Source of the DNA: Alphaproteobacteria bacterium | GTDB taxonomy: Bacteria > Pseudomonadota > Alphaproteobacteria > Rhodobacterales > Rhodobacteraceae | Direction: 5' to 3' | Assembly: GCA_030425925.1 (NCBI GenBank) | Contig: JAUHZO010000001.1 | Coordinates: 186,001 to 250,000 of the forward strand | Length of the DNA stretch: 64,000 bases | Shown here: positions 1-28,656 of the stretch, one piece after another | Position numbering within the stretch: the stretch's first letter is position 1 | How the letters are laid out: each line of letters begins with the position of its first letter | Made by a program: the position numbers and the translations under genes | Notes under the pieces: model-generated | The model's input: the letters and a program-made list of their open reading frames with translations, nothing else | The model's database searches: none | What the model was told of the DNA's origin: nothing

Positions 1-258
1 CCCGTCCAGCGTGGCGCGTGCCTCGGGCGTCAGCGTCGACTGGTCGACCTGAAAGAACACCCGGTCGCCCACGGTCTGCTGGAAATAGGCCTGCGAGGCG
101 GGATCGTTGGCGCTGCCCGGGATGATGCCGCTGTCGACACCGCTGCCCGCGTTCAGCCCCGCGCCGGCAGAGGCGTCATTGTCGAAACGGTTGCCATTGG
201 TGCAGCCTGCGGCGGCAAGGGCCGCGATCAGCAGCGCGGCTCTGGTCTGATGGGTCAT
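1..258 (-). CDS. pal: Peptidoglycan-associated lipoprotein Pal (5' part, cut by window edge)
   Basis: Outer-membrane lipoprotein of the Tol-Pal system that binds peptidoglycan through an OmpA-type C-terminal domain. The first 86 residues are visible. They show a short hydrophobic signal with a lipobox ending AAGC, so Cys19 should be lipidated, then a Gly/Ala/Ser-rich linker, then the start of the Pal domain (DRVFFQVDQSTLTPEA). The peptidoglycan-binding residues lie beyond the window. The ATG at 258 is the only start that places the signal peptide correctly. In most proteobacteria tolB lies directly upstream of pal; here tolB ends at 24344, about 24 kb away. The intervening DNA holds the block described below, so this pal copy probably uses its own promoter. 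Confidence 0.93.
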   Translation of the reverse strand, partial: MTHQTRAALLIAALAAAGCTNGNRFDNDASAGAGLNAGSGVDSGIIPGSANDPASQAYFQQTVGDRVFFQVDQSTLTPEARATLDG

Positions 259-696: not shown

Positions 697-2160
697 TCAC
701 CCCAGGCGCCGGCTGCGTAGCACCTCCATCGGGTCTGTCGCGCCAAGGCGCGGCATTGCCTTGCGACGTTCGGCAAGGGTCATTTGCACCAGTCGATAGG
801 TCAGCCGAGCCTGATTCGATACCACTGCTTGCGCCCAGTCATCATACCCTTGACGCGGCGGGGTCTGCATACGCAGTGCCAGCCGGTCAAAGCTGCGCGG
901 GTCGGCCACCGAAAACGCAGTCATCGTCGCCAGAACCAGATTGCCGCCGGCCATCGCGCCACGATCTTTCTGCCATGTGCCCAGCACCGCAGGTCCGAAC
1001 TCCAGCCAGGACAGCGCCGCACACAGATCCGGATCAAGAAACAGGTCCCGGTCCAGCAATGCGGCAAAAAGCGCGCGATAGGGAATCACCGCTTGCGCAA
1101 GCAAGGCCCGTCGCCGTAGCGCCGCCCGGCAGGCAAGGTCCAGCACCAGAGCATGCGTCAGGACCGCGGCGCTGGTCATCACACGTGCAGCCTGTCTCAG
1201 CCGCGCGCCGTCGGGATCGTCCCGCAAGGCGGCAGCAGCGGTCGACAAGGCAGGAACCTCGGCACCTATGGCTGCAAGAAGATCGGGCAGCCCGGCGGAC
1301 GGGGCAAGCGACTGACGCCGGTCCAGCCGGTCTGCCTGGGCAGGCAACGCCTCGGCCTCGGCGCGGGACAGCCCTGCGGCCACCGCTGCGCGGGTCAGGC
1401 AAAGCTGTCCTGCTCCAAAGAACTGCATGTCGGCCTCGGTGATCCGTTGCCGGTAGCCCCATGCCAGGGTGTCACTGTAGCGGCGTTCCTCCGCCAGGTT
1501 TTCGAGATGGCGTATGGCAGCAGATGCAAAGCTGTCGTCGGGCTGCAGTACACGGTAGTCCGCACGGCCCATCGCGGCCTGACGACGGGATCCGGGCGCA
1601 ACCCGGCCGCGTGGTGCGGCTTTCAGCCGGGGCGGCCTAAGCGGCTGGTCCGGCGCGTGCCAGTTGGCGGCATGGCGCGCCCAGTGCAGGATTTGCGGCA
1701 CCAGCGCAGGAGCATGAGCAGCCCAGAATTCACGATCCAGTCGCAACGTCACCTGCTCGGCGAAATCGGTGCGCGAGGCCACGTCCATGCCGGGATGACG
1801 CGGCCTGTCGACACCGGTCAGGACCTGACGAAGGAGCGTGACAACCGTGTCGCGCCCGGAATGGCGGATGACCACGCCGCCGCCTTCTTTCAGGGCCTGG
1901 GGGCATAACACTCCCCGCGCTGCAGTGCGGATGGCGTGATCGCCGGGATGCGCCCATTTCGCCGCGGGGCCAGCCATGCGCGGACCGGGCCGGACGGCAA
2001 ACCCGCTGGGCCGGTCCACCGCCCCCCTGACCGGATCCCCGGTAAGCCGGGTGAACAGCGCGATATCGCACGCCGAGTCGCTGCCCGTGTCCATTGCCGC
2101 GCCGCCGCCATCCGGCGGGGACGGCAGGGCCGCCTTGCGCCCCGTCCCGCTTGTCTGCAT
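697..2160 (-). CDS. Unrecognised soluble protein, about 487 aa, first gene of the block
   Basis: I do not recognise this protein. It is Ala/Arg-rich, has no signal peptide or membrane segment, and is mostly predicted helical in its second half. It is transcribed away from the actin-fold ATPase operon, sharing a 274-bp AT-richer region with it. The start is uncertain: ATG 2160 is used because the frame upstream of it is AT-rich and looks non-coding, and a weak GAGCAGG precedes it. ATG 2094, ATG 2223 and GTG 2283 are alternatives. Its position at the edge of the block, divergent from the operon, would suit a regulator or cytoplasmic partner, but no DNA-binding motif is visible. Confidence 0.7.
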   Translation of the reverse strand: MQTSGTGRKAALPSPPDGGGAAMDTGSDSACDIALFTRLTGDPVRGAVDRPSGFAVRPGPRMAGPAAKWAHPGDHAIRTAARGVLCPQALKEGGGVVIRHSGRDTVVTLLRQVLTGVDRPRHPGMDVASRTDFAEQVTLRLDREFWAAHAPALVPQILHWARHAANWHAPDQPLRPPRLKAAPRGRVAPGSRRQAAMGRADYRVLQPDDSFASAAIRHLENLAEERRYSDTLAWGYRQRITEADMQFFGAGQLCLTRAAVAAGLSRAEAEALPAQADRLDRRQSLAPSAGLPDLLAAIGAEVPALSTAAAALRDDPDGARLRQAARVMTSAAVLTHALVLDLACRAALRRRALLAQAVIPYRALFAALLDRDLFLDPDLCAALSWLEFGPAVLGTWQKDRGAMAGGNLVLATMTAFSVADPRSFDRLALRMQTPPRQGYDDWAQAVVSNQARLTYRLVQMTLAERRKAMPRLGATDPMEVLRSRRLG

Positions 2161-2434
2161 TGCCTGCTCGTTTTTCTTGCCGTTTTTATCTTGTTGAGGG
2201 CAAGGTAGCTTTTTGCCCCGCATGTTGTCCACAGGCTTTTCCACAGACGCCCCGATTGCAATGTCCCGTTTCGCAAATGCCACCGCCGCCGCTTCGGATA
2301 AAAGGAAGCATCCGTATAGGCGAACAGAGCAATTGGATCGGAACAGAGCACGAACATAATCAAGATTGCGTTAAAGCGACAAAGATGTTGCAGCACATCA
2401 CATGACTCAATCAACCATTGCGGCAGGGGGTGTC
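2161..2434. promoter_or_regulatory. Divergent promoter region with two DnaA-box-like sequences
   Basis: This is the shared upstream region of the unknown gene at 697-2160 and the ATPase operon starting at 2435, and it is clearly AT-richer than its surroundings. Two 9-mers close to the DnaA-box consensus, TTGTCCACA (2225-2233) and TTTTCCACA (2237-2245), lie 12 bp apart in the same orientation. An inverted repeat GGGCAA/TTGCCC (2198-2203 and 2213-2218) lies beside them. No confident -35/-10 pair could be chosen by eye. Two boxes without an AT-rich 13-mer array or dnaA nearby do not make an origin. Confidence 0.4.
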
Positions 2435-5400: not shown

Positions 5401-5617
5401 GGACGTGCTGGCGCGTCCGGCCCGTCTGAACCCGGGCACGCGGGAGCTGGTGTTTTCGCGCGGTCCGGCGCAAACTTTCCTCAGCGGTGCGGTGCAGACA
5501 GAGTATTTTCACGCCGCGCAGCATGACGGCGCGACAGAGTTTGGCACGTTGACCTTTTCGCTTGTACGCTTTGGCGGGCTGCACACCGACAGCGGGGCGG
5601 GCACAACGGCGTCATGA
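2435..5617 (+). CDS. Large Hsp70/actin-fold ATPase-like protein (1060 aa)
   Basis: The central part has the layout of the actin/Hsp70 ATPase fold. There is a phosphate-1-like strand-turn (SLDLGSGSHQMA, about residues 416-427), then a segment like the Hsp70 inter-motif strand and helix (FIVTHPAYVDPER, about 588-600), a connect-like IPEPVALARYL (about 632), and a clear phosphate-2 motif (MLDFGATTLDVAI, about 657-669). About 415 residues of unknown fold precede it and about 300 follow. The general plan resembles SrfB-type proteins, but I cannot confirm membership. ATG 2435 is chosen over ATG 2402 because GCAGGGGG precedes it at the right distance. No signal peptide or membrane segment is seen, so it is probably cytoplasmic. 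The stop overlaps the next start (ATGA), so it heads a tightly coupled operon with the PBP and SEDS genes and may act as their filament or regulator. Confidence 0.75.
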   Translation: MGKRISNKNLKEPDRSLTFVFEDEETRKKYFPVSSTGVVFFSLGFLDGTNRDLAQRDAKIVAKAAEVTVSFPRIPVTVVDEVRNGLIPRSVIGRISPTGGTGGREFPFWLYWAEFDSLSSHALKKLFVGPCDPSRPGGGGYAPRNPGLHPEIQGAPEGSGSARLKVELIGTGTVLQKARLVLSPPEHDRFDEQARYYLEGFNGSKSTIKPSRRHEFSRAGHEFSRTGDGTLELELALPDPDQDTDADRKLLKSLLHPKDHSKGHALLPLLIDFSGPFTPGDAPIGRRIIDKNECFDARVQTVLPKTTDTSFYAMVEAAANDSSIWVQITGAPDEQITVFVDGLKGPNHPAIENMAEKIKLEVVEVGASSALTGGKVEPAQPADGTSFSYSTTYDHKDMNIRVTVDIRWNISFRHRFSLDLGSGSHQMACLCPEESEVVTPLILNIANRCTASYTAPTEAPALLYDRRDQHGSTHSLNALGCPFANEAIRNRFPSGHSPLADLTVVCGGDEDWLARLGPGLDDRRVDGFKSALFQGAASIDWPDLAAPVLDVFAEVCRVRFIEAMMSFEKDVIKKAIRPPSPVQRPPAQFIVTHPAYVDPERYVEMLHRLAEVHGKLAFGEQGKYNRLSQVCTIPEPVALARYLDAKEGKEAGSDCMTMLDFGATTLDVAIRRRFLDGDLTKTLLIHASAAELGGRVLDAAIGGAIGEVLGKTLPAPGQAQLADRCDLSSHAIARALRQPGQGRHRADVKRRALQRIEDAKIEAANDWSDGNPTFRFELARVQQNGLSPNPDDDWIPPALCEASRLVRQQNGWHVAEISWRDLENQPSLQSYLTRLKVFLQGIPEPPNTAQPDEIQRWCLAGRAALFKPISDAVQDEARRRNQEFSVPFEHDTAKNKEAVASGAILVAAELGTLIRETGIQACLFHLDLTGDKTRIVAVHDLQGATDGQPIGVVAPATAICVARCSLPVAEYVRQHHGNDPEVARPFFLGDVLARPARLNPGTRELVFSRGPAQTFLSGAVQTEYFHAAQHDGATEFGTLTFSLVRFGGLHTDSGAGTTAS

Positions 5618-7152: not shown

Positions 7153-7220
7153 AGATTGTCCGCAACCTTGGCGGATAAAAGGGTTATGTTGCCAACCGCC
7201 ATTGTTTCGGGTCCTGCCTC

Positions 7221-9110
7221 ATGCCGATGCTGAAAGACGAAAGCAAACGGGTCGGCGCACGTCAGACATATGTAGAGCTTGGAACCGCCTGGTATCGCGA
7301 ACGCCTTCTGGTCTTTCTGCCCGAACGTATTTCCGAAGGATCGGAAACGGCCACAAAAACGGTGCAGAACTGTCTCGAATCCGTTGCGCAAGTGATCGAA
7401 GCCCCGTTTGTCGAACCGGATTCGCGCATTTTCGCCCCGATGACGCATTTTGTGGTGCGGATGCAAAGCACCGGCGGCCAGCCACACATGATCGAACGGA
7501 TCAACCGCATCATTGCCAAGACCTCGGACGATATCGGGCTGAAATTCCGGCCGCGCATCGCCCGGTCCCATGTCGGTGAAGCCTATACACCCGGCGTGTT
7601 CCTCGGGGCGGCGCTGTTTGCGCCGTTCGACAGGGTAGCACCGCGGGGCCATCTGTCGGTCGATGTCGACTGGACGTCGGCAGACGGTCGCAAGCTGCGC
7701 GCGGAATGCGCCGTTGTGCTGCCCGACCGCTCCGGCGACATCCCCGCCGCCTTCTATCCCGGACAGGATCGCGTGGTCTTTGGCCCGGAACGCCTGCTGC
7801 CCATGCAGATCAAACCGGTCCAGATGCTCGAGGTGGGCCCAGATGGCCGCTGGAAAACGCTGGACGAGACCCCGCCCAACGACCTGTTCCGCAGCGATGC
7901 CATCTGCATGATCCTGCCCTCGATGGACCCGCACAGCCGCGGCACGTTCGGTGTGTACTTCACCAGTCTCTGCCCGGAAGCACGCAAGGTCCTGCTGGCG
8001 CCGGACCAGCAGCAGCGCGCCGCCAAGCCGGTTTCGCTGATCGAGACGGAACATATGGTCAACGGACAGCCGGAACCGGTTCACGGCTGGCGCGACGAGG
8101 TCCATCCCCGGCTTGATCCCGCCACAGGGCGGGCCAGTTGCGACGTCTCTCAGGGGCTTCTCGCTCCGGAAAGGATCGCGATGCTAGCCAAGGCGACCAT
8201 GACGATCGTGCCCAACAACGCCCCGTCGCGCCTGCGCGCCAGTTCGGACAACCTTGGCGGCGGGCATCTGGTCGTGATGGGGCTGATGCTGCCCAGCCCG
8301 GCACGGATGCCCGAGGTCCAGGAATGCGTCGTCAACCTGGCCAGCACCGGCACGCTGCTGTCGCACGGGCTCGAGGCACATGCGATGTCGATCATGGTGC
8401 TGCCGCGGCAGTATTTCGGCGCACGCGATCATGTGGCCTGGGCCGAGGCCGCCAATCCCGCCGGGATGGCACCGACGCTGCTTGGCGCAGGCGAAAACGA
8501 TGTCGGCAACGAACACCGTCTCACCTATCTCAGTCCACGCAGCCATTTCGGCGAGAACATGACAGAGGACGCCCGGCGCCAGGTCACCGGGCTGGCGCAC
8601 AAGATCCAGACCGACATGTTCCTGCTGCTGCGTCCGCAGGAACACGCGACGCCGCTGGGCTATATCGGCCTGCCCCTGCCGCTGACGGATCCCGATGCCG
8701 GACGCAATGACAGCGCCCCCGCCGTCTATCTGCGCGACACCGACCTGCCGGCTGCACAGCAGGTCTGCCTCGACTGGCTCGACAGCGCCGCGCATGTGGT
8801 TGTTGCCAAGGGCCTGGACCGCCAGGAGCTCATGGGGTTTGCGGAATTCTGGAAAAAGGTGGTGGAGCGAAAGCGCCGTTTTGCGGCATGGCTGGATTTC
8901 GACCAGCGTTTCACCATGTACCGTCAGGATGGGTCGCGGGGAAAGCCCTGGGCACATCTGCACGTGGACTGGCGTGCCGGCGTGGGCGACGAACGGCTCA
9001 AGATGCGGCTCGATCCGGGGCGGCATTTCTGGCTGGGTCCGCTTCTTGTGCGCTATGAATGCCCTGCGGCCAACGTCCGGCGGCCCGGCGATGCGGGACC
9101 GCGGCCGTGA
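7221..9110 (+). CDS. Unrecognised soluble protein (629 aa), third gene of the ATPase-PBP-SEDS operon
   Basis: No family is recognised. The protein has no signal peptide or membrane segment and alternates beta-rich and helical stretches. The last 70 residues, ending near WLGPLLVRYE, have the look of the closing strands of a beta-sandwich such as an FHA domain, but this is only a resemblance. ATG 7221 is used; ATG 7227 is possible, and neither has a strong ribosome site. A 68-bp gap separates it from the preceding gene. The stop overlaps the GTG start of the penicillin-binding protein (GTGA at 9107-9110). Confidence 0.72.
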   Translation: MPMLKDESKRVGARQTYVELGTAWYRERLLVFLPERISEGSETATKTVQNCLESVAQVIEAPFVEPDSRIFAPMTHFVVRMQSTGGQPHMIERINRIIAKTSDDIGLKFRPRIARSHVGEAYTPGVFLGAALFAPFDRVAPRGHLSVDVDWTSADGRKLRAECAVVLPDRSGDIPAAFYPGQDRVVFGPERLLPMQIKPVQMLEVGPDGRWKTLDETPPNDLFRSDAICMILPSMDPHSRGTFGVYFTSLCPEARKVLLAPDQQQRAAKPVSLIETEHMVNGQPEPVHGWRDEVHPRLDPATGRASCDVSQGLLAPERIAMLAKATMTIVPNNAPSRLRASSDNLGGGHLVVMGLMLPSPARMPEVQECVVNLASTGTLLSHGLEAHAMSIMVLPRQYFGARDHVAWAEAANPAGMAPTLLGAGENDVGNEHRLTYLSPRSHFGENMTEDARRQVTGLAHKIQTDMFLLLRPQEHATPLGYIGLPLPLTDPDAGRNDSAPAVYLRDTDLPAAQQVCLDWLDSAAHVVVAKGLDRQELMGFAEFWKKVVERKRRFAAWLDFDQRFTMYRQDGSRGKPWAHLHVDWRAGVGDERLKMRLDPGRHFWLGPLLVRYECPAANVRRPGDAGPRP

Positions 9111-11923
9111 CCGGGTTCAAGTCGCTGCTGGTCTCGTTGGCGATGCTGGCGCTGGCGGCGGCCATCGGCATACGGGTCATGACATTCGAGCCAAGGGTCG
9201 TGGCCTCGAACCACGCCTGGATCGACCGGGCCACCGTCAAGGCGCAGAACCGAATGACCGCCAAGCTGTTCCGCAGCGCGGTGCGGCATGGCTATATCCG
9301 CTTCGACACCGCGGACAACCGCATCGTCCTGCTGACACCGCGAGAGATCGACGCCGGCCAGGCCGAACCGCTGGAGGACCTGCCGGCAGGTTTCGGCGAC
9401 ACGTTTGGAGCCGCGGAAACCAGAAAACTGCTGGCGCGCACCCGCGGGGCGGGACCGGAAATCGGCAAGGAAATCGCGCGGCACCAGTCCAATCGCGGCC
9501 TGCTGGGCGTGCGCGATGCCGGGCTGACGTCTCGGTGTGCGACGGTCGACGATGCGGCCTGCAGCGGGCGGCCCTGGACCATCGCGCTGGCCGGGCTGGC
9601 CGAAACCGGCGGCGCGCCCGGTCTTGGCACCGATACCGCGTTTCCAGAACCCGGCATGTTCCGCGGCTTGGTCCGACCGCTGCCACCCTATTCCGGCACC
9701 TGGACAGTGCTGCCCGGGCTGAACGCCGACGGGCGCCGCTTTCGCCTGCGCCCGGTGCGCGCGCGCGCCGGGGCGACGGGGCAGGTGGTGGTCGATCTGG
9801 TCGGGGCCGCGCCTGAACTTGCACCGGAACTGCAGCCGTCGGTGCGGCACACGGCCTTCTGCCTGCCCGACGGCGTCGAGATACAGACGCTGCGCATTGC
9901 GCCCTGTGCCGATCTGAAACAGGACGACACCGCGGCTGTCGCCCACCAGTTCGCCTTTCCGGCCTCCGCATGGCAGCCCGGCAGCTGGATCGAGGCGGGT
10001 CCGGTGGAACTGCCCGCCCTGCCCGCGGGCCTGTCCCGCGCGATCGCCCGGGGGGAACTGCCGAGACTGCTGGACGATCTGGCGCTGGCACCGGAATCCG
10101 GCCTGCTGGAGCGCACGCTGGATGACCGTTTCGAACTGCGTTGCAACCGGGCGGCGTGCTGGCCCCATCTGCGCGACAGCGAGGGCAGCCGTCGGGTCGC
10201 CCGGGACCTGGTGGCCGATGCGCGCGAAAAGGAACAGATCCTTTCGCAGACCGCCACAGATGTGTCCATCGCCGATCCCGAAGGACCGGAGGACGACGAC
10301 CTGCCGGTGTTTGTCGACAACGCCTTTCTGCGCACGACACCGTCCGGCGCGCTGGAACTGACCGAGCTTGCCAGGGCCCTGCACCTGCAGCCGGCGCTGG
10401 GCGTGCCCGGGCTGGAAAACGGCAGTCTGCTGAACTTTCTGGGCCGCTTGCCCGAAGGCGTGACAGCGGGCGAGATCGAACTGACCTTCGATGCCACGAT
10501 CCAGCGTACCGCCCTGACCGTGCTGCGCGGATTCCTGCAGGATCGCGCGGTCCCGTCCGGCACCGCGATCCGCGCCGAGGCATTGCAGCAGCATGTGGCG
10601 CGCCTGCCCGGTGCCCGGGATGCCGAGCGACGCGCGGGATTTGTGCTGATCGACTTGCGCGATCAACCGGGCGCGGTGCGCGCGGCGGTGCGCTATCCGT
10701 TGTTCGATCCCAACCTGCCGATCTGGGATCTGCAAGCCCTGGCAACCGGCACGGAAAGCGCCAGCCCGGCCACGCCCACCTTCTGGCGCGGACTGGACGG
10801 CCGCACCCAGCCCGGCTCGTCGATGAAGATCATCTCGGCGCTGTCGCAGATCCGCTCGGCATTGGGGATGAACGCAGGCGTGCCCGAAGACCGCCACGAT
10901 GCCATTCGCCAGGCCGTTCTGGGGGCCGATCCGGGCAGCTACCCGTCCCGTATGGGGTTTCGCGTGGACCAGGCGCAGACAACCCTGTCGCCACAGCCGG
11001 GCTACAATGCACCAGATTTCACCTTTGCCGACCGTGGCGAGGTTCCCTTGCAATACAATGACGGCGTGCGGCAAGCCTGCCGGTCGCGCGGTGTGGCAGC
11101 GGAGTTGGCCTTTGCCGGGCGCAACTACGGTGTGTGCGAGGCAATGGCGCGATCGTCCAACATCTTTTTCGGGCGCATGGCCGTCTACGAGAACCCGCAG
11201 GCCATTGCCGCGCTGATCGACGCCGAGGCCGATCCGCGCCCCTTCACCGCGCTGGCACAAACGCTGGATGCGCTGGGGCTGGTTCGCCCGGCACCGCTGG
11301 TGCTTCTCCCACCGGACGTCGCGACGGAGGCAAGTTTTGCGCCAAGGGCCGAACGCCCGTCCCTGGTCAGCGCGCCTGACCTGGGCAAGCGGCCGGCGCC
11401 GCAAGCCCGCAACGCGTTTCACGCCCAGACCGTTGCGATCGACGCCTATGGTCAGGGGGCACAGATGGCCCCCCTTGCGATGGCCACGGCAGCCGGGGCC
11501 GTGGCGCTGAACGCCGTTGTGACGCCGCACATCGCCCGCGCCGAAGGGGCCGAGGCGCGGCCCGGCCCCCCGCTTGTGCCCGACACGACGGTGGCCGGGG
11601 CAATGCTGGACGAGCTTCGGCTGGGCATGCGGGCGGTGGTGTCACCGGGCGGCACCGGATATGCCAGCTTCAACGCAATATCGCCGAACGCCGCCTCGAT
11701 CCTGCCGCGCGTCTCTGGCAAGACGGGCACCGCAACACAGGACGACCGCCAGTCCGGCACGACATTCTACACGCACTGGTTTGTGGGCTGGGTCAGTGAC
11801 GACGCGGCCCACCCGCGCTTTGCCTTTGCATGTGCGGTCAGCCACACCACAGGTGGTTTGGTCTGTCCGGCCCTGACCGGTGCGATCCTGGGCGAACTCG
11901 ACGCCGTCGGGGCGCTGCAATGA
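9107..11923 (+). CDS. Class B penicillin-binding protein with an enlarged N-terminal region (938 aa)
   Basis: Peptidoglycan DD-transpeptidase that cross-links stem peptides in the periplasm. One N-terminal membrane anchor (about residues 5-25) is followed by about 430 residues of non-catalytic region with several Cys residues and no recognised domain. The transpeptidase domain opens near residue 458 (LTFDATIQRTAL). All three catalytic motifs are present: SSMK with nucleophile Ser571, SSN at 683-685, and KTGT at 872-875. At 938 residues it is much longer than PBP2 or FtsI (about 580-650). GTG 9107 is preferred because it overlaps the upstream stop and puts the anchor at the N-terminus. Its stop overlaps the start of a SEDS gene (ATGA), the usual partner arrangement of class B PBPs. 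Confidence 0.9.
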   Translation: MTGFKSLLVSLAMLALAAAIGIRVMTFEPRVVASNHAWIDRATVKAQNRMTAKLFRSAVRHGYIRFDTADNRIVLLTPREIDAGQAEPLEDLPAGFGDTFGAAETRKLLARTRGAGPEIGKEIARHQSNRGLLGVRDAGLTSRCATVDDAACSGRPWTIALAGLAETGGAPGLGTDTAFPEPGMFRGLVRPLPPYSGTWTVLPGLNADGRRFRLRPVRARAGATGQVVVDLVGAAPELAPELQPSVRHTAFCLPDGVEIQTLRIAPCADLKQDDTAAVAHQFAFPASAWQPGSWIEAGPVELPALPAGLSRAIARGELPRLLDDLALAPESGLLERTLDDRFELRCNRAACWPHLRDSEGSRRVARDLVADAREKEQILSQTATDVSIADPEGPEDDDLPVFVDNAFLRTTPSGALELTELARALHLQPALGVPGLENGSLLNFLGRLPEGVTAGEIELTFDATIQRTALTVLRGFLQDRAVPSGTAIRAEALQQHVARLPGARDAERRAGFVLIDLRDQPGAVRAAVRYPLFDPNLPIWDLQALATGTESASPATPTFWRGLDGRTQPGSSMKIISALSQIRSALGMNAGVPEDRHDAIRQAVLGADPGSYPSRMGFRVDQAQTTLSPQPGYNAPDFTFADRGEVPLQYNDGVRQACRSRGVAAELAFAGRNYGVCEAMARSSNIFFGRMAVYENPQAIAALIDAEADPRPFTALAQTLDALGLVRPAPLVLLPPDVATEASFAPRAERPSLVSAPDLGKRPAPQARNAFHAQTVAIDAYGQGAQMAPLAMATAAGAVALNAVVTPHIARAEGAEARPGPPLVPDTTVAGAMLDELRLGMRAVVSPGGTGYASFNAISPNAASILPRVSGKTGTATQDDRQSGTTFYTHWFVGWVSDDAAHPRFAFACAVSHTTGGLVCPALTGAILGELDAVGALQ

Positions 11924-15390: not shown

Positions 15391-15397
15391 GTCTGAC

Positions 15398-18001
15398 TCA
15401 GTAGGGCCGCCGCCGCGGATCGGACAGACCCGTGATGGCACCGGCCAGCACAAGGGCAAGCATCCAGCCGGTCAGCACCATCAGGGCCTCCAGTGCCATG
15501 GCCACGGCCAGTATCGGTTCGTTGAAGGCCGAGCGCGCCCGGTCGCTGGACGTGTCGCTGTCACCGCCCGGTCCACCGGTGCCCGCTGCGCGCCCGGAAC
15601 CGTCTGTTGCCTCGCCCGTAGCGTCGTCCGCGTCGTCCTCACGGTCCGGAAGGTCACTCTGCTTTGTGCCCTGCGCCTCGCTGATATCCCTGTCGTCATA
15701 CCGCCCCGTTGTCAGGTCCGGCAATGTCACGCGGATCGACCAGTCCTTTTCCTGCCGCAGGTCCAGAAGCGGAATGACCACATCCGCCGAATACAGCCAC
15801 GGACTGAAGGTGGAGTATTCCGCCGGCAGGAAGATCGCGCAGGTCTCGCCGCGCAACTCGGGGCGGAAACTCGATACGACGTGCCGCCAGACGTCGTGCT
15901 CGTCCACCCGTTTGTCCCGGTCACGACAGGCCGCGGACCAGCGGTTCGAGCCAGAGCCGTCGCAATACCGTTTGGCGTAGCGCGCGCGCAACGTGGCCAC
16001 CCATTTCTCCGGCGTGATGGCCTCTGGCCGCGCCCAGTTGTGACGGCAGGCGTGGAAATGGTCCGACAGGTGGAGCCGATCATGGAAATCATGGTTCTTG
16101 TTGGCCCCGTTCCCGTATTCGTCAACAGCGCTCAGGCTCTTTTTCAGCGCGACAAAATCCAGCGGCCCGGCCAGCGGACCGACCGTGCCGCGCGTGCCCG
16201 CCTTCATTTCATTTTCGGCATCGTTTTCGGCATCGTTCGCGTCGTCCTGTTGCAAATGCAGTCCGCGATAGCGCAGTTCCATATGGATCCAGTCGCGTTT
16301 CGACGCGACAAAGGCCGCGCGCTCCGGGCTCATGGCTCCGCGATTGGCCAAAAGATCGGCACCCATTACACCGAACAGCCATAGCATGACGATCTGCCCC
16401 ACCACTTTCAGCGGCTTGACCCCGCCGCGAATGGTGATCAGCACCAGCCAGTCGAAGAACATTGCCGGATAAGAGGTCGGCTTCTTGAGCAACCTAGTAC
16501 CGAGCATCATCGCGAACCCGAACCCGAACACCAAAGCGGCAATACGCGAGGATGTCCACCAACCTGCTATGGGATCCGCGGCAGCAGCGCAATGGATGAA
16601 CAAGTAAATAACGCAACCAAGAAATGCGCCGAAGCATAGGAAGAAAGAAGTTACGGGAAAGCGTCCCAGCCACGGAATACGCCGCACCCAGCCGGAGAAC
16701 ATTTCTCGATAGTCCTCGGCCAGGGCCAGTTCCTTTTCGGCAATGACCATACTATCGGCGGCGCGCATGTCGCCCTGGGCCATCAACGCCTGGGCCAGAC
16801 GTGTCAGCGACCGACGTTCGGACTCCGGAGCCAGCGCGGCCAGCGGTCTGAGGATGGCCGCCCGCTGCGCAACGTTGTTCCTGGACTTGCCGTCGTCGCC
16901 GATCCACGGATCGACGCTGGCCCGGGCCAGCAGCGCCTGGTGCAACCCCCGCGGCGTTGCGGCGGCAACCGGCGGATCCAGTGCAAGCCGGGACGGCGGA
17001 AGACCGATGGCGTCGGCGGTCATGGCCTCAAGACGCAGATGCCCGAGATCGGCATGGGCCAGGTCCAGAAGCGACAACCGCCCCACCTCGTCTTCGCCAG
17101 TTTTGGTGAGGATACTGGGCGTAAGCCCGTCAAGCGTCAGGCGATGCTCGACCCGCAAACCGCGGCCCGAAACAAGCACCTCGCAGACCCTTTCCGGGTG
17201 TGGCGGACCGCCGGAAAGGCCCAGTGCCTGACGGAATACCGCTCTTTCCAGGTTGATACGGTGCCCGGACCCAAGGCCAATCGGCGGGAACGAGGCAAGG
17301 TTTTGCTGCCTCGTGTCTTGGTCCGCCGAAACAGACAGGTCCTCGGCCTCGAAACGGAACAGGTGGATTTCCGCCGTTCCCTCGACAAAGGCATCACCGA
17401 GATCACAATGCAGATACGGCATTGAAAGCGGTTCGTCGTTTCCGTCGCGCCTTTCCAGAACCGCGAATTCGCCCTGTTTCCTCTCAACCATCCTGATCGA
17501 CAACCGCCGCGAGACATGCACCGTTCCGAGATCCAGACCCAGTACAGCAAGCGGCGTCATGCCAGCGAACGAGGATACTGCGCCCGCGATGCTGATGTCC
17601 AACGTGTCGATCGTTGCGCCTTCGAGGTTCAAACCGGTGCTTTTGCGGCTCGGTTCCGTCGGGCAAAAGATGCAGTCTTCGAAAACCACCCGCCGGGCAT
17701 GGACAGCGCTCAGATCGGCAGTACTATGAAACGCACATTTCCTGAACACGATCTCGTCGGTACGCAGGGCTTTGAACGAGACACCCGCTTCAAACGTGTT
17801 GTTGCGAAATTCGAGCCGCCCGTATTTTTCGCCGTCGGCACAAAGCAGCTTCCGGAACTTGGTCTTGTCACCAAAGGTCAGCGATCGTCCCGCGCCCTGC
17901 AACTCGACACAGTTGAAGTCGTCCTTGGACTGCTGCGGTTTCTCTGGCGGGAAGGTCCCTGTCAAGTTTTGCTCTTTTGCAGGTAATCGATAGACTGTCA
18001 T
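15398..18001 (-). CDS. Membrane protein with pentapeptide/beta-helix-like N-terminal half (867 aa), unknown function
   Basis: The first half contains successive short strands of the form VFRKCAF, VVFEDCIF and LEFRNNTF, like the rungs of a pentapeptide or right-handed beta-helix protein. About four hydrophobic segments follow near residues 447-545 and one more near 828-860. Between them lies a soluble region rich in His, Cys and charged residues (about 560-760), and the part before the last helix is Asp/Ser/Gly-rich and probably disordered. ATG 18001 is used because AAGGTCGGG precedes it and the frame upstream loses the repeat pattern. The gene converges on the SEDS gene with only 7 bases between stops and no terminator, and it diverges from the coiled-coil membrane protein gene at 18144. 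Confidence 0.75.
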   Translation of the reverse strand: MTVYRLPAKEQNLTGTFPPEKPQQSKDDFNCVELQGAGRSLTFGDKTKFRKLLCADGEKYGRLEFRNNTFEAGVSFKALRTDEIVFRKCAFHSTADLSAVHARRVVFEDCIFCPTEPSRKSTGLNLEGATIDTLDISIAGAVSSFAGMTPLAVLGLDLGTVHVSRRLSIRMVERKQGEFAVLERRDGNDEPLSMPYLHCDLGDAFVEGTAEIHLFRFEAEDLSVSADQDTRQQNLASFPPIGLGSGHRINLERAVFRQALGLSGGPPHPERVCEVLVSGRGLRVEHRLTLDGLTPSILTKTGEDEVGRLSLLDLAHADLGHLRLEAMTADAIGLPPSRLALDPPVAAATPRGLHQALLARASVDPWIGDDGKSRNNVAQRAAILRPLAALAPESERRSLTRLAQALMAQGDMRAADSMVIAEKELALAEDYREMFSGWVRRIPWLGRFPVTSFFLCFGAFLGCVIYLFIHCAAAADPIAGWWTSSRIAALVFGFGFAMMLGTRLLKKPTSYPAMFFDWLVLITIRGGVKPLKVVGQIVMLWLFGVMGADLLANRGAMSPERAAFVASKRDWIHMELRYRGLHLQQDDANDAENDAENEMKAGTRGTVGPLAGPLDFVALKKSLSAVDEYGNGANKNHDFHDRLHLSDHFHACRHNWARPEAITPEKWVATLRARYAKRYCDGSGSNRWSAACRDRDKRVDEHDVWRHVVSSFRPELRGETCAIFLPAEYSTFSPWLYSADVVIPLLDLRQEKDWSIRVTLPDLTTGRYDDRDISEAQGTKQSDLPDREDDADDATGEATDGSGRAAGTGGPGGDSDTSSDRARSAFNEPILAVAMALEALMVLTGWMLALVLAGAITGLSDPRRRPY

Positions 18002-18143
18002 TGTCCCGACCTTGAAAAACACGCACGCAAATGTGACATATAACACGAAGTGTTGACACAAATTCACCTTTGACGCGAGATCATTCTGCGGACCCGTCAG
18101 GATTGCCGGCCCCGCACCACAACAGCAAACGGAGGGTAGTGCC
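18002..18143. promoter_or_regulatory. Divergent promoter region with 13-bp palindrome
   Basis: This AT-rich gap separates two divergent block genes. A perfect palindrome AACAC-GAA-GTGTT lies at 18042-18054, and TTGACA (18053-18058) begins inside its right arm, in position to be the -35 of the plus-strand gene. No good -10 follows at 16-18 bp. On the opposite strand TTATAT overlaps the left side. A regulator bound to the palindrome could control both genes. The plus-strand start has a strong GGAGGG at 18131-18136. Confidence 0.4.
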
Positions 18144-21056
18144 ATGGCGGCTTCGGAGCGTTTCAGAACCTGGCCCCCGCATTTCATCGACCGTGTCTGC
18201 CTGGGCCTGTTCCTGGGCCTTGGCCTGTTTGCAATGGTCAGCCTGGCGCTGCCATCGGTGTTCAACACGCCGCTTGATTACTGGATGCGTGCTATCAGCC
18301 TGGTGATGATCATCTGGGGCTCGATGCGGCTGGGCCACCGCATGATCGTCGACCATATGGACCGGCTGGGCCGGACCGACAGCGGCGCGGTCATGATGCT
18401 GGCCGGGGCGGTGGCTCTGTCGGGCGTCAGCTTTGCCACCACGATGTTCGGCATGGCCGAGTTCGCCTCGCAGCGCGGCAGCCAGACCGGAGCGGACGGC
18501 ACCGGGCTGGTGGGCTGGTTCATCAGCCTGCTGACCACCTTTGGCATCCAGATCATCATGCTCTTCATCGCGCTGCGGCTGGGCGAACAACTGGTGCAGA
18601 TGCGCCCCAGCGTCGACGAGCAGTTCGAGGCCGCGACACCCCCGGTAGGCGAGATGCGTCAGGCTTTGCTGCGCAACATCCTGCGGGCGGTTCCCGTGCT
18701 GCTGCTGGCCCCCCTGGCGATGGTGCTTCTGGGCGTCCCGTTCATGGCACTTCTCGAAGTGCTCAGCGCGCCTGAAACCGTCACCGGTTTGGACCGGGTC
18801 GGTGTTGTGGCCGCTTATGGGCTGGTGGTTCTGGCGGTTGCCATCGCCTCGGGACTGTTGTCGCTCAGCTGGGCGGCCGGCGTGGGGGTGCTGCTGGCGT
18901 TCGCCTATGTCGGCACACTGGCGGTATCGTCGCTCTTCTCCTTCGACAGCTACTACCGGCTGGTGCAGGACGACAGCGATGTCGAGCGGCGCCGTATCGC
19001 CATCGTCGAGGAAACGACCTCGTCCATGCTGCGCGATGCCGAAACGTCCCTGCGCAACCAGATCGTGGCGTTGCAGGAAAGCCCCGACGCGCAATCGGTG
19101 CTCTCCGGAGTCGAGACGCTGCTGGACGACCTGCAGCGCCGCAAGGACGAGATCAACCAGAAGCTGGCCGAAGACGCCGAGGCTTTCGTGGCCCGGCTGG
19201 GCCAACGCCGCGACACGCTGCGTGCGGAATTGCAGACGCGGCTGGCAGAAAAGCAAGAAGCGATTGCAGCGTTGGACACCGGAGACGATTCGGCCAACGA
19301 GGCAATTCGCGCGCGGACCGAAGCGGAAACCAACCTGAAGACCGCGCAGGATGCGCTGGCAGCGCTTGAAGAGGCGCGGGACGACGCCAGGGCCGAGGCT
19401 GCAACCAATGAAACGCTCGCAGAGTGCGAACGCATCGGCGACAACCAGTCGCCCGGCTGCGAGGGAACAAGCGGGATTGCCGGGGAGCGGTCTGCCTTTA
19501 CGCGGTTTACCAACGCTGCCGTTGCCGCGAACGCACGCGCCACCAGGCTTGAAAACGTCGACATTCCCAATGCCGCCGCCGAGGTGGAAATCGCCGAAAG
19601 AGCGTTTGACCGTGCCGAGGCCCGCGTCGCTGCCGCCCAGCCACTGAGCGTTGAGGCCGTAGTTGCCGCGCGCCAGCAGGCACTGGATCGGATCAATGAG
19701 CGTTTTGACGATCGAATCGAGGAAATCCAGAACGCCATCGCCGCGCTGCCCACGCCGGAACAGGCCGGGCGAATCTCGCTCGAATCGCTGGAGGAGGCGT
19801 TCATCCGTTTCAAGGGCAATCCCGGCAATGCCTCGCTGGCGGAATGGGTGTCCGAGTGCACCAACGTGCGCCAGTCGCTGCTGGAGGCCGAAAGCACCGC
19901 TGCAGACATCCGCGATCTGGTCTGCCGCCCAGTCGCGATGGTGGACATGGCCCAGCAGGGCGACGCGCTGCGCGCGGCGCAGCAGCGCTTCCAGGGGTTG
20001 GGCGACGACGGCAATCCGCAGGACGGGGCGCTGGTCTGCACCTCGGTTGGCGGCCTGCCGTCCCGCACCGCCGAAGCCGATGTCCAGGCCGCGCTGGACA
20101 CGCTGGTGGACAACACCCGCACCTGTCTCGGGATCGCCAACCGCGGACAGCCCGAGATCGAGAAACTCCAGGGCCAGCTGACCGAACTGGTGTCGATCTA
20201 TCTGGGGCAGAACACCGACATGCGCCGGTCGATCGAAGACCTGCGCCGCGGCTCTCCGTTTGCCGTGGGGGCTGCGGCCGGGGCGGTGTTTGTCGATGTG
20301 CTGATCCTTGTCGTGGGCTTTCTGGCCGCGCTTGGCGCGACCGCCACGCAAAGCCACAACCCGATCCGGCCCAATCTGGATACCGTGCGCGACAAGCTGT
20401 CAAAACGCGCCGCACCGTTTTCGCGCGACGGCACGGCCGTGGTCCCGTTGCAGCGCTTCCTGTCCTATCTCGAACCGCGACGCATCCATGCCGCCCAGCA
20501 GACCGATCCGAACGTGGCCTACAACATGCTGTTCCGCTTTGCCCTGAACCGTGCGGCGGTGCGCCCCGAGGACGAGGCCCTGGTCAAGGCGATCATGGCC
20601 GCGGTCCCCGTGCGCTATCAGCGATGGATGCCTTTCGACTATCGCATGCCCGACGGGCAGACCGTGCTGGAAGAGCGCGAGGCGATCAGCCAGTCGGTGG
20701 TGGATATCATGTTCGATCTTGCCTATCCCAGCTGGACCGAAACCGACCGCATCGCCCGCGACGTGCTGGCAGAAGACCCCACAACCAGCGCACCTGCGGC
20801 GGATCGCGATGCCATCCCGGCGGCGCGGGCCGCGCTCCGGCTGCCGCCGCCGCGCAGCAAGGCCGTGGACAGCGTGCGCGCGGTGGTCGATTTCGAATCC
20901 CGCCGCGCCCGGCTGGCACAGACCGCCGACGGTGCGACACCGTCAGAACAGCAGGGTGGCAACACGGCGGGTGATGCCAGCGGGACCGCGCCTCCGCCGG
21001 CCAGGCCTGCAAATCCGCTCGCCGATGACGACGAACGCCCTGCCCATCAGGCCTGA
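18144..21056 (+). CDS. Polytopic membrane protein with long coiled coil (970 aa), unknown function
   Basis: About seven hydrophobic segments occupy residues 19-262. They are followed by a long charged region with heptad-like spacing (about 280-560), a Cys-containing region (about 560-700), one more membrane segment (about 703-732) and a C-terminal soluble domain of about 235 residues that ends in a Pro/Ala-rich tail. If the coiled coil lies between helices 7 and 8 it would be on one side of the inner membrane and could span a good part of the periplasm. I know no family with this layout. ATG 18144 has a strong ribosome site (GGAGGG, 8 bases upstream). It belongs to the same block as the PBP/SEDS operon and may be a structural partner of it. 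Confidence 0.75.
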   Translation: MAASERFRTWPPHFIDRVCLGLFLGLGLFAMVSLALPSVFNTPLDYWMRAISLVMIIWGSMRLGHRMIVDHMDRLGRTDSGAVMMLAGAVALSGVSFATTMFGMAEFASQRGSQTGADGTGLVGWFISLLTTFGIQIIMLFIALRLGEQLVQMRPSVDEQFEAATPPVGEMRQALLRNILRAVPVLLLAPLAMVLLGVPFMALLEVLSAPETVTGLDRVGVVAAYGLVVLAVAIASGLLSLSWAAGVGVLLAFAYVGTLAVSSLFSFDSYYRLVQDDSDVERRRIAIVEETTSSMLRDAETSLRNQIVALQESPDAQSVLSGVETLLDDLQRRKDEINQKLAEDAEAFVARLGQRRDTLRAELQTRLAEKQEAIAALDTGDDSANEAIRARTEAETNLKTAQDALAALEEARDDARAEAATNETLAECERIGDNQSPGCEGTSGIAGERSAFTRFTNAAVAANARATRLENVDIPNAAAEVEIAERAFDRAEARVAAAQPLSVEAVVAARQQALDRINERFDDRIEEIQNAIAALPTPEQAGRISLESLEEAFIRFKGNPGNASLAEWVSECTNVRQSLLEAESTAADIRDLVCRPVAMVDMAQQGDALRAAQQRFQGLGDDGNPQDGALVCTSVGGLPSRTAEADVQAALDTLVDNTRTCLGIANRGQPEIEKLQGQLTELVSIYLGQNTDMRRSIEDLRRGSPFAVGAAAGAVFVDVLILVVGFLAALGATATQSHNPIRPNLDTVRDKLSKRAAPFSRDGTAVVPLQRFLSYLEPRRIHAAQQTDPNVAYNMLFRFALNRAAVRPEDEALVKAIMAAVPVRYQRWMPFDYRMPDGQTVLEEREAISQSVVDIMFDLAYPSWTETDRIARDVLAEDPTTSAPAADRDAIPAARAALRLPPPRSKAVDSVRAVVDFESRRARLAQTADGATPSEQQGGNTAGDASGTAPPPARPANPLADDDERPAHQA

Positions 21057-21205
21057 TCCCTGTCACGCAGCCCGCTGACTGTTGCACGAATGCATGACAC
21101 GCCCCGGAATGGCGCAATGCGCCACCCGAGTCCGCTTCACTCGCCTCATGCAATAGTCAAAACAGATATGTTCAATGATTGCTTGGGGCTGGATTTTCGT
21201 CGGGG

Positions 21206-24082
21206 ATGAACGGGGACTTGCAGGATGATTCACGCCAGACACTGTTCGACGAGCTGGAACGGCTGGTCATCCTGCGGTTTTCCGATCCCGAGAACAGCCC
21301 CGCCGCACTGAGCAGAACAAGAGCACCCCTCGATCGCAATCAACCGATCTGGCAAATCTCCTTTCTCACGCCGAACGCGCCGGAAGAGCCCTTTGACGAA
21401 TACGAGGAATTCGCCGAAATCCGGATGGAGGACGGAACCTATCTTGGGTCACTCAACCGTCAGAAAAACGGAGATACTGCTCATATCGCCGAGGTGATTT
21501 TTGCACCGGCACCAGAAAACGACATCTTGCGCCTGGAAATCCACGCGAAAGTCGACAACGCCCCGGTTGCGCCGGTTGTTCTGGAACTGCACGCCCACCC
21601 GCCTGCGAACCCCACTCATGTCCGCCGCATCTTTGCCGATACAGCCCCCACCGCGCGGGTCTGCAATCTGGGTGTTGAGGACTTCGAAATCGGCGCCCCC
21701 GAAGCCCCGCCAACAACCAAGACCATACTCAGCCAGACCCGCGCGGTCGATGCCGACGCAAGAACGCTCGCACTGGGCCCGGCTGTACCGGAGCACGCGG
21801 CCGACCCGGACAGCCCCGATCCATTGCTTGCCATCGAGCCCCGGCGGCACGACGCGCTGCGCAGGCAATGGCCCGAGCGCGACAACAACAACCCGCGCGA
21901 CACGTCTGCCGAAGGCCTGATGCAGGTTCACTTTCTGGAGAATGGGCAAAAGGTGAAACCCGCACGGCTGGACTCCCGGGCAGAAACCTATGCAAGCGCG
22001 TGCCTTGGGGTGGTGCTGATGCATTTTCACCTGCGCCGCTGGTTGGCAGGGCACCCGAACATGCAACAGATCGCAAGGCACTCGATCTTTTCGCAGCGCA
22101 CCAGCGAGGTGGTCTGGGCCTCGTCGCTGTTCTCGCATCTCGGCCCCGTCTGCGACATCGTCGACGATTGGGTGGCCCGGTATCTCGCAGCCGATCTGGA
22201 CTCAGATGACGCCAGGCCCGACGCGGTCGACGACAACACCCTGTGGCACATGCTGAAACACCGGCTGAAGAGGATCGAGGCAGAGGCCTATGACGAACTC
22301 TACGACCCCTTGATTGCCGGCGGGTTTCCCGGAGTCGAGGCGCAGATCGCCAAGGCCCTGCCGCTTTTCATGCGCACCCGGCTTCTGGCCGATTTCCAGT
22401 GGCCCGCCCCGGGCGATGACGATCAGGCACTTCAGTTCGAGCGGTTCGTGCTGCCGCTGGCCACACGTATCCTGCGCAGCGCGTTGGCGCGCGACCGTGC
22501 TCCCGATGAGATCGCCTTCAATACCCAGGCCTTGTCCCCCGATACCTTTGACGTTGTGGGCATGTACAACCACAATCCTGCCAGCGCAGTGGTGCATCTG
22601 ATCGACACCGCCAGCTGGCTGCGCCATCACGCCAGCCGGCAGGCGCTGTCTCAGACCCAACCGCTGGACAGGCGGTTCTTTGTCTGGTGCAGTGGCGACT
22701 GGCTTGCCATCCAGATCGGTCAGGACAACCCGTTCTCCGATCTCTACACCCTGGCCGAAGCAACGTTCGCCCTGGCCGGTCGCCCCGGCACCGGACCCTC
22801 GCAGACCGGTCCGGCCCTTGCCCGCGGGCCCGAGTCTGCCTGGATGCGGCTGGTGTTCTGGCGCCGAGCCCTTCTGTCCGGCCGGTACTCGACGCCACAG
22901 GACATCGACGCCCTGGACAACGGACAGGCCCTGCGGCTGCTGACGGCACCGGAACTGGCCACGATCGAAGAGCTTCCGGAACAGATCACAACCCCCAACC
23001 CGGCAACAACGTGGTCCGAAACCGATCCGGCATACTGGCTGGCGCGCGAGCGGTTCGGGCCGGGGCCGCATCCCGGGGCGTACTCAGACGCCGCACTGCT
23101 GCGCGCCCTTGCGGAGCCGGACCTCGACACCGATCCCGAAGCCGGTTGGCGCCTCTGGGTTGACGCGGCGTGGCCCTTTCCGCTGGCCAGCCTGCCCGGC
23201 ACAAGCCTGGATTTCCTGTCCAACGCGCGCTTGATCGCCGCCCCGGACAAAGCGTGGAGCGCCATCGCCAGAGCCGGGGTTGGGGCGCGCAAGAACATTC
23301 CGCCAGAAGATGTTGAAGAAAGCTTTGCCACGATTCCATCGGGCGCACGGATCCAGTTGTCCAACTTCATCAAGAGTCCGACAAAAGAGCATCTGGCCCG
23401 ACTGCTCGAAAAGATCGACGGCGGTGTCGGTTCTGAGGGTTTTCGCGCGCTGGTCCCGCAGTTGAACACCTACCTGCGAAGGTTGCTGGAGGATCTGAAG
23501 ACCGCTGCCAGCAGCGAAAGCCCGTTGCACCGTTTGTTCCGCAACGTTGACGGCCCAAACGGCGTACTCTGGCTCGACCAGGACATGGCGTCCCTGCTTG
23601 GACCGCTGCTGGCAACACACGCGGACGTGTTCAAGACCGAATGGGTGCGCGACCTGCCGCTGGGCTCGGTCCAGTGTTCCCTTGCAACGGCCGCGGCGGA
23701 CAGTCTGGCCCCGCCCGGGAACGTCCCGCAGAACATTCCGGAACTGGCCTATGCGCCACTTGCCCGATCAGCTGCACCTGCCCTGGAAAGACCGCAGGAC
23801 CTGCAGCACCTCATTGGCCTGGCCGGGAACGCAGCGGTGCAGGCGCATCTGGACCCCGAGGCCGTGATTGAAAAGCCGGTCGATGTTCTCACCCGGGTCT
23901 GGTTTGCCGGGTACGGCGCGGACCCCGCTGGGCAACCGGCGGTCGCTCTGCTTGTTCAGAAGCTTTTGCAGAAGCAACTGCCCGTCGCCGGCAACAAGAC
24001 CGCCGGGCAAATCTGGCACGACGCCATCATACCGACGTTTGCCAAGGATGCCGCGGCCATCGCCAGCGTGCTTGGCCGCTGA
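21206..24082 (+). CDS. Unrecognised large soluble protein (958 aa), last gene of the block
   Basis: No family, signal peptide or membrane segment is recognised. The N-terminal 150 residues are beta-rich and resemble a sandwich domain, a polar linker follows, and residues about 230-958 are mainly helical with many Trp and Leu. The start is unclear: ATG 21206 is preceded only by CGGGG, while an in-frame TTG at 21179 would add nine residues. A 149-bp gap separates it from the preceding gene, so it may have its own promoter. It is transcribed toward tolB, which runs the opposite way, and the 261 bp between the two stops is one boundary of the block. Confidence 0.72.
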   Translation: MNGDLQDDSRQTLFDELERLVILRFSDPENSPAALSRTRAPLDRNQPIWQISFLTPNAPEEPFDEYEEFAEIRMEDGTYLGSLNRQKNGDTAHIAEVIFAPAPENDILRLEIHAKVDNAPVAPVVLELHAHPPANPTHVRRIFADTAPTARVCNLGVEDFEIGAPEAPPTTKTILSQTRAVDADARTLALGPAVPEHAADPDSPDPLLAIEPRRHDALRRQWPERDNNNPRDTSAEGLMQVHFLENGQKVKPARLDSRAETYASACLGVVLMHFHLRRWLAGHPNMQQIARHSIFSQRTSEVVWASSLFSHLGPVCDIVDDWVARYLAADLDSDDARPDAVDDNTLWHMLKHRLKRIEAEAYDELYDPLIAGGFPGVEAQIAKALPLFMRTRLLADFQWPAPGDDDQALQFERFVLPLATRILRSALARDRAPDEIAFNTQALSPDTFDVVGMYNHNPASAVVHLIDTASWLRHHASRQALSQTQPLDRRFFVWCSGDWLAIQIGQDNPFSDLYTLAEATFALAGRPGTGPSQTGPALARGPESAWMRLVFWRRALLSGRYSTPQDIDALDNGQALRLLTAPELATIEELPEQITTPNPATTWSETDPAYWLARERFGPGPHPGAYSDAALLRALAEPDLDTDPEAGWRLWVDAAWPFPLASLPGTSLDFLSNARLIAAPDKAWSAIARAGVGARKNIPPEDVEESFATIPSGARIQLSNFIKSPTKEHLARLLEKIDGGVGSEGFRALVPQLNTYLRRLLEDLKTAASSESPLHRLFRNVDGPNGVLWLDQDMASLLGPLLATHADVFKTEWVRDLPLGSVQCSLATAAADSLAPPGNVPQNIPELAYAPLARSAAPALERPQDLQHLIGLAGNAAVQAHLDPEAVIEKPVDVLTRVWFAGYGADPAGQPAVALLVQKLLQKQLPVAGNKTAGQIWHDAIIPTFAKDAAAIASVLGR

Positions 24083-25744: not shown

Positions 25745-25968
25745 GCCTTGCCCCTCCTTCGGGAACCCGTCGCTGCCACGCTGCGGGTCTGTTGCCCGCC
25801 TGACCCTAGCATACAAGACGCGACGGCTTTGCGAAACAGGTGTTGGCGGGGAAACGGGCAAGGCACCGCTCAGCCGGCGCGGCACCGCGCGGATTGCCAA
25901 GCCGAAACGGCGGGCCGATACTGAAGGCACAGGGGCGGCGGACGCCAGGGACGGGATCGGGGAACGCA

Positions 25969-26886: not shown

Positions 26887-26918
26887 CCCGCGCGGACGGC
26901 ACCGGGCACGCCCAAGGC

Positions 26919-26933
26919 ATTCCGAACCGGAAT
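26919..26933. promoter_or_regulatory. LysR-type T-N11-A operator candidate
   Basis: The sequence ATTCCG-AAC-CGGAAT is a perfect inverted repeat with 6-bp arms and fits the T-N11-A rule for LysR binding sites. It lies between the LysR gene and the binding-protein gene, 79 bp before the latter's start, where an activator or recognition site would be expected. Confidence 0.6.
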
Positions 26934-27011
26934 ACCCCCAATCCGAGACTTCATAAGATTGCGCCGGGGGCAAACGGCAATAGCCTTCCGCCACACCTTG
27001 GGAGGTCTGAC

Positions 27012-28622: not shown

Positions 28623-28629
28623 CGACAAC

Positions 28630-28656
28630 GGGCGGGCACCGGACCGGTGCCCGCCC
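28630..28656 (+). terminator. Strong intra-operon hairpin after the binding-protein gene
   Basis: A perfect inverted repeat with 13-bp arms (GGGCGGGCACCGG and its complement) around a single A begins 7 bases after the binding-protein stop. There is no T run. Such hairpins usually protect the upstream mRNA and reduce read-through, so that more binding protein than permease is made. Confidence 0.7.

Follow-up and report, generated by a model that had tools for sequence, protein, structure and literature searches.

A cassette inserted into the tol-pal operon of a Rhodobacteraceae bacterium probably encodes an accessory SEDS/PBP peptidoglycan synthase with its own Hsp70-type ATPase

Which function is encoded by a 23-kb block of nine large genes that separates tolB from pal in an alphaproteobacterium of the family Rhodobacteraceae? 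Pairs of a SEDS protein and a class B penicillin-binding protein (PBP) make and cross-link peptidoglycan, and the SEDS/PBP synthases known so far are understood to be organized by MreB or by FtsA/FtsZ. An initial annotation of the window (the whole stretch of 64,000 nucleotides analyzed here, to which the positions refer) had recognized such a pair in the block together with an Hsp70/actin-fold protein and had proposed a third, accessory synthase with a dedicated ATPase. Our analysis confirmed the observation itself and partly supported this interpretation.

The nine large ORFs listed for the block (697 to 24082), here named P1 to P9, were all present, and codon-position composition favors them as coding frames. 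The block and its flanks are organized as follows.

pal, 5′ part: 1 to 258, minus strand; insertion flank, runs on past the window edge
P1: 697 to 2283, minus strand; about 490-528 aa, no family match in Pfam or NCBIfam, no predicted transmembrane (TM) segment
P2: 2402 to 5617, plus strand; 1071 aa, predicted Hsp70-type ATPase, nucleotide-binding region at about residues 420-950 after an N-terminal extension of about 400 aa
P3: 5614 to 7152, plus strand; 512 aa, no family match, cytosolic by sequence
P4: 7221 to 9110, plus strand; 629 aa, in a family of proteins of about 500 aa encoded directly 5′ of the PBP in ATPase-bearing relatives
P5: 9107 to 11923, plus strand; penicillin-binding transpeptidase with one N-terminal TM segment
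P6: 11920 to 15390, plus strand; membrane protein resembling SEDS glycosyltransferases, with an FHA-fold domain in its N-terminal part
P7: 15398 to 18001, minus strand; membrane protein of about 867 aa, N-terminal part weakly pentapeptide-like, conserved C-terminal motif
P8: 18144 to 21056, plus strand; 970 aa, TM segments at both ends, long coiled coil between them, several Cys
P9: 21206 to 24082, plus strand; about 958 aa, no family match, no predicted TM segment
tolB: 24344 to 25744, minus strand; other insertion flank, TolB_N 3.8e-30

Stop and start codons overlap by 4 bp at three positions (ATGA at 5614, GTGA at 9107, ATGA at 11920), which makes 9107 and 11920 the probable starts of P5 and P6, respectively. 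Residue numbers given here follow the longer ORFs with starts at 9059 and 11830; the likely proteins are shorter by 16 (P5) and 30 (P6) residues. The overlaps described for a tight operon are thus real, but tight packing is confined to P2-P6: P1 and P7 lie on the minus strand, and P8 and P9 share the strand of P2-P6 and are placed past the reversed P7. Single-sequence searches against Pfam and NCBIfam revealed no usable family for seven of the nine proteins (P1-P4 and P7-P9); six had been counted before. PADLOC searches with the same seven single sequences yielded nothing usable, the matches being weak and of the coiled-coil type.

The block exactly fills the space between tolB (24344, minus strand) and pal (start at 258, minus strand). 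The pal product, a lipoprotein of 175 aa when read over the window edge, is 69-75% identical to the tolB-adjoining Pal of its closest relatives. All 24 relatives examined have tolB and pal on one strand, separated by 80-576 bp; hence, an insertion of 23 kb has split the tol-pal operon here. The G+C content of the block is 64.7% as compared to 69.1% in the remaining window. No tRNA was found, no integrase was recognized in the block, and its own ends showed neither a mobility gene nor a long flanking repeat. Furthermore, the PBP and the ATPase were not found on the plasmids searched, and the SEDS protein was not found in the phage records searched. Apparently, the cassette was acquired horizontally and is transferable. 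The tol operon is also broken between tolA (36989-38161, named by position) and tolB; this region (25744-38161) carries, on the other strand, a peptide ABC transporter with SBP_bac_5 (26460-28622) and an MFS gene (35719-37017).

The ordinary wall machines of the host are encoded elsewhere: contig C10 carries MreB, PBP2 and RodA together, and contig C25 carries FtsI and FtsW. P5 and P6 therefore form a third pair, as had been proposed, and the block is an addition and not a replacement.

A second copy of the complete block was found in another genus of the same family (genome G765), with homologues of all nine proteins within about 23 kb in the order P1-P2-P3-P4-P5-P6-P7-P8-P9. P7 is reversed as in the window, and the order and strands of P2-P9 are equal in both genomes; just P1 differs, its homologue (E 4e-35, 27% identity) being located upstream of P2 on the strand opposite to that in the window. 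Identities ranged from 24% (P9) to 46% (P5) and E values from 2.7e-28 to 0; P3 (1.7e-42), P7 (2e-48) and P9 (2.7e-28) were matched at positions corresponding to those in the window. With all nine homologues in one stretch at such E values, the gene set is more than chance, and the low identity combined with the kept gene order strongly indicates that the nine genes function as a unit. The G765 copy sits elsewhere in its genome, not at tolB-pal, and adjoins an IS transposase. The idea that the genes are conserved as a set was borne out by this 23-kb stretch and by a core set in other genera. Nor were the genes found separately in most genomes: P9 homologues beyond G765 numbered 0 in 241 genomes of the order, and P7-like matches outside G765 mostly comprised a C-terminal motif of about 50 residues.

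The assignment of P5 and P6 as a class B PBP and a SEDS protein held. P5 matched Pfam Transpeptidase (9.4e-15) and NCBIfam pbp2_mrdA (1.7e-15) and has both features of class B PBPs, a transpeptidase domain with SxxK, SxN and KTG and an N-terminal membrane anchor. Among its relatives, SxxK and KTGT were each conserved in 30 of 30 sequences and SxN in each of the 29 sequences that extend over this motif. The PBP_dimer pedestal (PF03717) matched just the two other PBPs of this genome and not P5. P6 as a single sequence reached 0.0015 with rodA_shape and nothing above chance in Pfam. A profile of 32 P6-family sequences (A5), searched against solved structures, matched FtsW (2.6e-7) and E. coli MrdB (1.2e-6); when the order was scanned, it also recovered an ordinary SEDS protein in 388 of the 391 genomes. 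Pfam PF01098 (FTSW_RODA_SPOVE) matched just two proteins of this genome above its cut-off, both canonical; that P6 was missed is a matter of the model's reach and no property of the protein. Asp1046 of P6 is invariant (32 of 32 sequences), and the surrounding motif PAVQDDF aligns with the DF motif of FtsW; the positions following this catalytic-type Asp are EE in FtsW and non-acidic in P6-family SEDS proteins. Lacking a match to PBP_dimer and PF01098, respectively, P5 and P6 are both remote from proven enzymes. Conservation of the catalytic residues in both proteins across this very wide divergence argues that the pair is active as enzymes. Additionally, the PBP and SEDS genes are neighbours in nearly all complete loci.

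An AlphaFold model of P6 (mean pLDDT 66, pTM 0.71) was superposed on FtsW with Z 20.0 and an rmsd of 3.3 over 316 residues and on RodA with Z 19.6. Foldseek ranked FtsW and RodA at the top as well, though with E values of just 0.005-0.008. The O-antigen ligase WaaL reached Z 10.4 with the P6 core, about half the score of FtsW and RodA; matches to pyrophosphatases, sliding clamps and helical bundles were regarded as background. Residues 73-317 of the model resemble FHA domains, namely those of Rv1747 (Z 6.7), GarA (6.5), 3po8 (6.3), which is a phosphothreonine-binding FHA domain, and EssC (5.2). These Z values are modest, yet several unrelated FHA domains match over one range of P6. A TM segment precedes the domain and is itself preceded by Arg-rich residues; according to the positive-inside rule, the FHA-fold domain would hence be periplasmic, which argues against phosphothreonine binding.

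P2 is, judged by its sequence, an Hsp70-type ATPase distinct from MreB and FtsA. A profile of P2 and 14 relatives (A4) matched the nucleotide-binding domains of Hsp70/DnaK in the PDB with a best E value of 1.4e-6; 105 PDB sequences scored below 0.1 and, among the matches listed, 60 of 60 were Hsp70. The match spans part of the nucleotide-binding domain. Conserved motifs are LDLGSG and LDFGATTLDV, which represent the phosphate motifs, a PEP/PEA helix, GGRVLD (GG...LD) and GRAALF. P2 gave no match to MreB, and the genome's own MreB lies elsewhere. The actin-fold ATPase described at the start of the operon was thus recovered and narrowed to the Hsp70 type, whereas the sequence lends no support to the parallel drawn with filaments of MreB or FtsA. 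About 120 residues remain after the ATPase region as space for an Hsp70 substrate-binding domain (model mean pLDDT 35). Hsp70-type ATPases open and close on a partner depending on the nucleotide; for P2, control of assembly or activity is therefore likelier than formation of filaments. An SrfABC system was also considered, SrfB being a large Hsp70/actin-like protein, and was dropped as no SrfB/SrfC Pfam match occurred in P2, its relatives or their neighbours.

How is the cassette distributed? P6 alone as a query found almost nothing in the order and led to one homologous SEDS-PBP pair, in one genome. An alignment of five SEDS proteins, used to search a collection of 84,980 species, revealed 48 loci. 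In alphaproteobacteria, one gene order was found repeatedly: ATPase, a protein of 265-400 aa, a P4-like protein of about 500 aa, PBP, SEDS and a coiled-coil P8-like protein. This core order is carried by a Rhizobium sp., Hoeflea (five), Puniceibacterium, two MAGs and genome G003. Bosea loci contain the ATPase, P4-like, PBP and SEDS genes, and no P8-like gene was seen there. A profile scan of the order detected the long SEDS form in four genomes out of 391, namely this genome, G003, G781 and G765, and no neighbour of the block was constant across genera. The cassette is rare and patchy.

Two observations were made beside the core genes. Bosea has a conserved convergent cluster of family-less proteins 3′ of the SEDS gene, where others have the P8-like gene (L049:13078-19819); in L049 it includes an OmpA-domain protein (17948-18571). 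G003, Hoeflea and Puniceibacterium encode a GTPase of about 315-345 aa and a partner of about 850 aa next to the core set (L006/L007, L129/L130 and L041). This GTPase matched DO-GTPase2 weakly (E 0.012), and a search of the window's genome with its profile, carried out without a positive control, gave no match.

Profile comparison linked P2 to the ATPase family of the other loci (98.7%), P4 together with its G765 homologue to family F4 (hhalign, 97.6%, E 4e-12) and P8 to family F5 (hhalign, 99.4%, E 3e-21). P1, P3, P7 and P9 showed no link to the F6, F7, F17 and F19 proteins of other loci; hence, the nine-gene and core forms share P2, P4, P5, P6 and P8 only. PDB profile searches with the families of P3 (a pair profile), P4, P7 and P9 gave no match. 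A possible degenerate GTPase motif in P3 was discarded, having no profile support, and matches of P8 to LeoBC, ZorA and SMC were taken as compositional, reflecting the coiled coil. A cytosolic location is probable for P1, P2, P3, P4 and P9, which lack TM segments. For P8, the TM segments close to its two ends and the long coiled coil with Cys suggest a periplasmic location. The C-terminal motif of P7 reads EYSTFxxWLYxADVVIPLLDLRQE; eight further genomes of the order have it in stand-alone ORFs with lengths of 505-690 aa (L138, L140-L142), so P7 seems to be part of a wider family of membrane proteins.

A tree of 52 SEDS core sequences was obtained by a quick search, with some rows on long branches. 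Canonical RodA and the P6 family were split with full support, each on a branch of 0.86. One clade of 23 members (SH-aLRT 95; RodA 100) contained all 20 ATPase-associated SEDS proteins, among which those of the window and of G765 are sisters (support 100). The remaining P6-family members belong to gamma-, alpha- and deltaproteobacteria and a few others. Seven loci outside the ATPase class carry F13, a P4-related family usually encoded immediately 5′ of the PBP; F13 of this kinase-linked class is related to F4 (95%). This second PBP-SEDS class is located near genes for Ser/Thr kinase, caspase-like (Peptidase_C14), FGE-sulfatase and FHA proteins (L037, L047, L064, L073, L075, L033, L067, L055). 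Its hosts are gammaproteobacteria, Desulfobacteraceae and some alphaproteobacteria, and contigs of Thiomargarita and Achromatium are among this family.

We consider it rather probable that the block is a cassette gained by horizontal transfer and that it encodes an accessory peptidoglycan synthase of the SEDS/PBP type, equipped with a dedicated Hsp70-type ATPase and a coiled-coil scaffold. We infer enzymatic activity, assembly into a single complex, topology and conditional use of the cassette. P6 most likely polymerizes lipid II by means of its conserved extracytoplasmic Asp, and the translationally coupled P5 would cross-link the resulting strand by the usual Ser transpeptidase chemistry. 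From the cytoplasm, P2 most likely governs assembly or opening of the complex through an ATP-dependent conformational change passed on by P3, P4 and P9. P8 may span the membrane, its long coiled coil reaching into the periplasm as a scaffold. Use of the cassette is probably limited to special conditions, since the host has retained its two normal wall machines and the cassette is missing from nearly all relatives; its rarity and mobility point to stress-related wall synthesis or an answer to attack. More tentatively, and with slightly less than even confidence, we suggest that the cassette represents a third class of wall machine, in which an Hsp70-type ATPase takes the place of an actin-like filament and drives or gates a SEDS protein and a transpeptidase; this machine would have FHA-fold and coiled-coil scaffolds in the periplasm and would travel between bacteria as a cassette.

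Could the block instead be an island of defence or biological conflict? The Hsp70-type ATPase, in relatives together with the GTPase, would then be an NTP-driven switch, and the PBP-SEDS pair an effector that remodels or repairs the wall after attack by phages or competitors. Such a role would suit a rare and patchy block inserted in a core operon, the weak resemblance of the relatives' GTPase to DO-GTPase2 and the caspase-like, FGE-sulfatase and FHA genes near the kinase-linked relatives; NTP-driven conflict systems with Hsp70 and DO-GTPases were described (Kaur et al. 2020, PMC7159879). However, penicillin-binding and SEDS proteins are unmentioned in that paper, this genome revealed no homologue of the relatives' GTPase, the PADLOC matches were weak and of the coiled-coil type, and the cassette was not found on the phages or plasmids searched. 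We regard this explanation as unlikely.

Even less probable appears a synthase dedicated to one structure, which would build or open the wall locally so as to accommodate a large complex of the envelope or to form a specialized type of cell or structure such as a stalk, a cyst or a polar structure. The many large family-less partners, the membrane and periplasmic scaffold and the conserved cluster with its OmpA-domain protein in Bosea would fit, but neither the block nor the G765 copy contains recognizable secretion, flagellar or pilus genes, and the block has no constant neighbour across genera. That the SEDS and PBP folds were repurposed, serving another polymer or acting as sensors rather than synthesizing peptidoglycan, is very improbable in our view. 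Extreme divergence, the unmatched PBP_dimer in P5 and the resemblance of the P6 core to WaaL can be cited for it; the transpeptidase triad and the SEDS Asp are nevertheless retained over wide divergence, PBP and SEDS genes adjoin in nearly all complete loci, and the scores of FtsW and RodA are double that of WaaL.

If an accessory synthase with an Hsp70-type ATPase partner is indeed encoded, this partner would represent another cytoplasmic route to control wall synthesis, and a functional context would follow for several new protein families. Cultured genera (Bosea, Hoeflea, Rhizobium and Puniceibacterium) offer a testable system, and the cassette transpeptidase may be a beta-lactam target outside the known sets. 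In the literature, for which coverage is thin for subscription journals, we found no described system with this gene set, in agreement with the initial annotation; the cassette as a gene set appears undescribed.

How does it compare with known systems? Like the elongasome MreB-RodA-PBP2 (MrdB/MrdA), the cassette combines a SEDS protein and a monofunctional transpeptidase with a cytoplasmic ATPase of the actin/Hsp70 superfamily, and P6 superposes on RodA with Z 19.6. Unlike it, the cassette has an ATPase of the Hsp70 type with a 400-aa extension, additional family-less proteins and an FHA-fold SEDS protein, and the canonical elongasome is present separately in this genome. The SEDS/PBP pair is also shared with the divisome core FtsA-FtsW-FtsI-FtsQLB, FtsW being the best structural match of P6; however, no gene for FtsA, FtsQ/L/B or FtsZ was recognized in the block, and the cassette is rare whereas the divisome is universal. 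In DO-GTPase/Hsp70 conflict systems, an Hsp70-type ATPase and large partners occur as here, and relatives of the cassette have a TRAFAC-like GTPase, but no GAP1 proteins were recognized and no GTPase was found here; PBP and SEDS proteins are present instead.

The actinobacterial cluster pknB-pknA-pbpA-rodA-pstP-fhaB-fhaA links a SEDS protein and a PBP to FHA domains. The cassette has a comparable link, and the P6 family has a kinase-linked sister class; by contrast, the FHA fold of P6 is fused to the SEDS protein and, by its charge pattern, would be extracytoplasmic, and none of the nine cassette proteins matched a Ser/Thr kinase in Pfam or NCBIfam. Accessory SEDS pairs that act during sporulation or under stress were found in the literature; SpoVE-SpoVD is the SEDS/PBP pair of sporulation. 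Additional or specialized pairs with conditional roles beside the essential ones were reported for C. difficile (PMC10693644), and a SEDS protein of this kind for Enterococcus faecalis (PMC12724132). The cassette resembles these accessory pairs as an extra or specialized pair of conditional use; they belong to Firmicutes, however, and their descriptions include neither an Hsp70-type ATPase nor a SEDS protein with an FHA fold, nor this gene set. An accessory SEDS-PBP synthase is hence of a known kind, whereas an Hsp70-type ATPase as partner, a SEDS protein with an FHA fold and the family-less partners are new.
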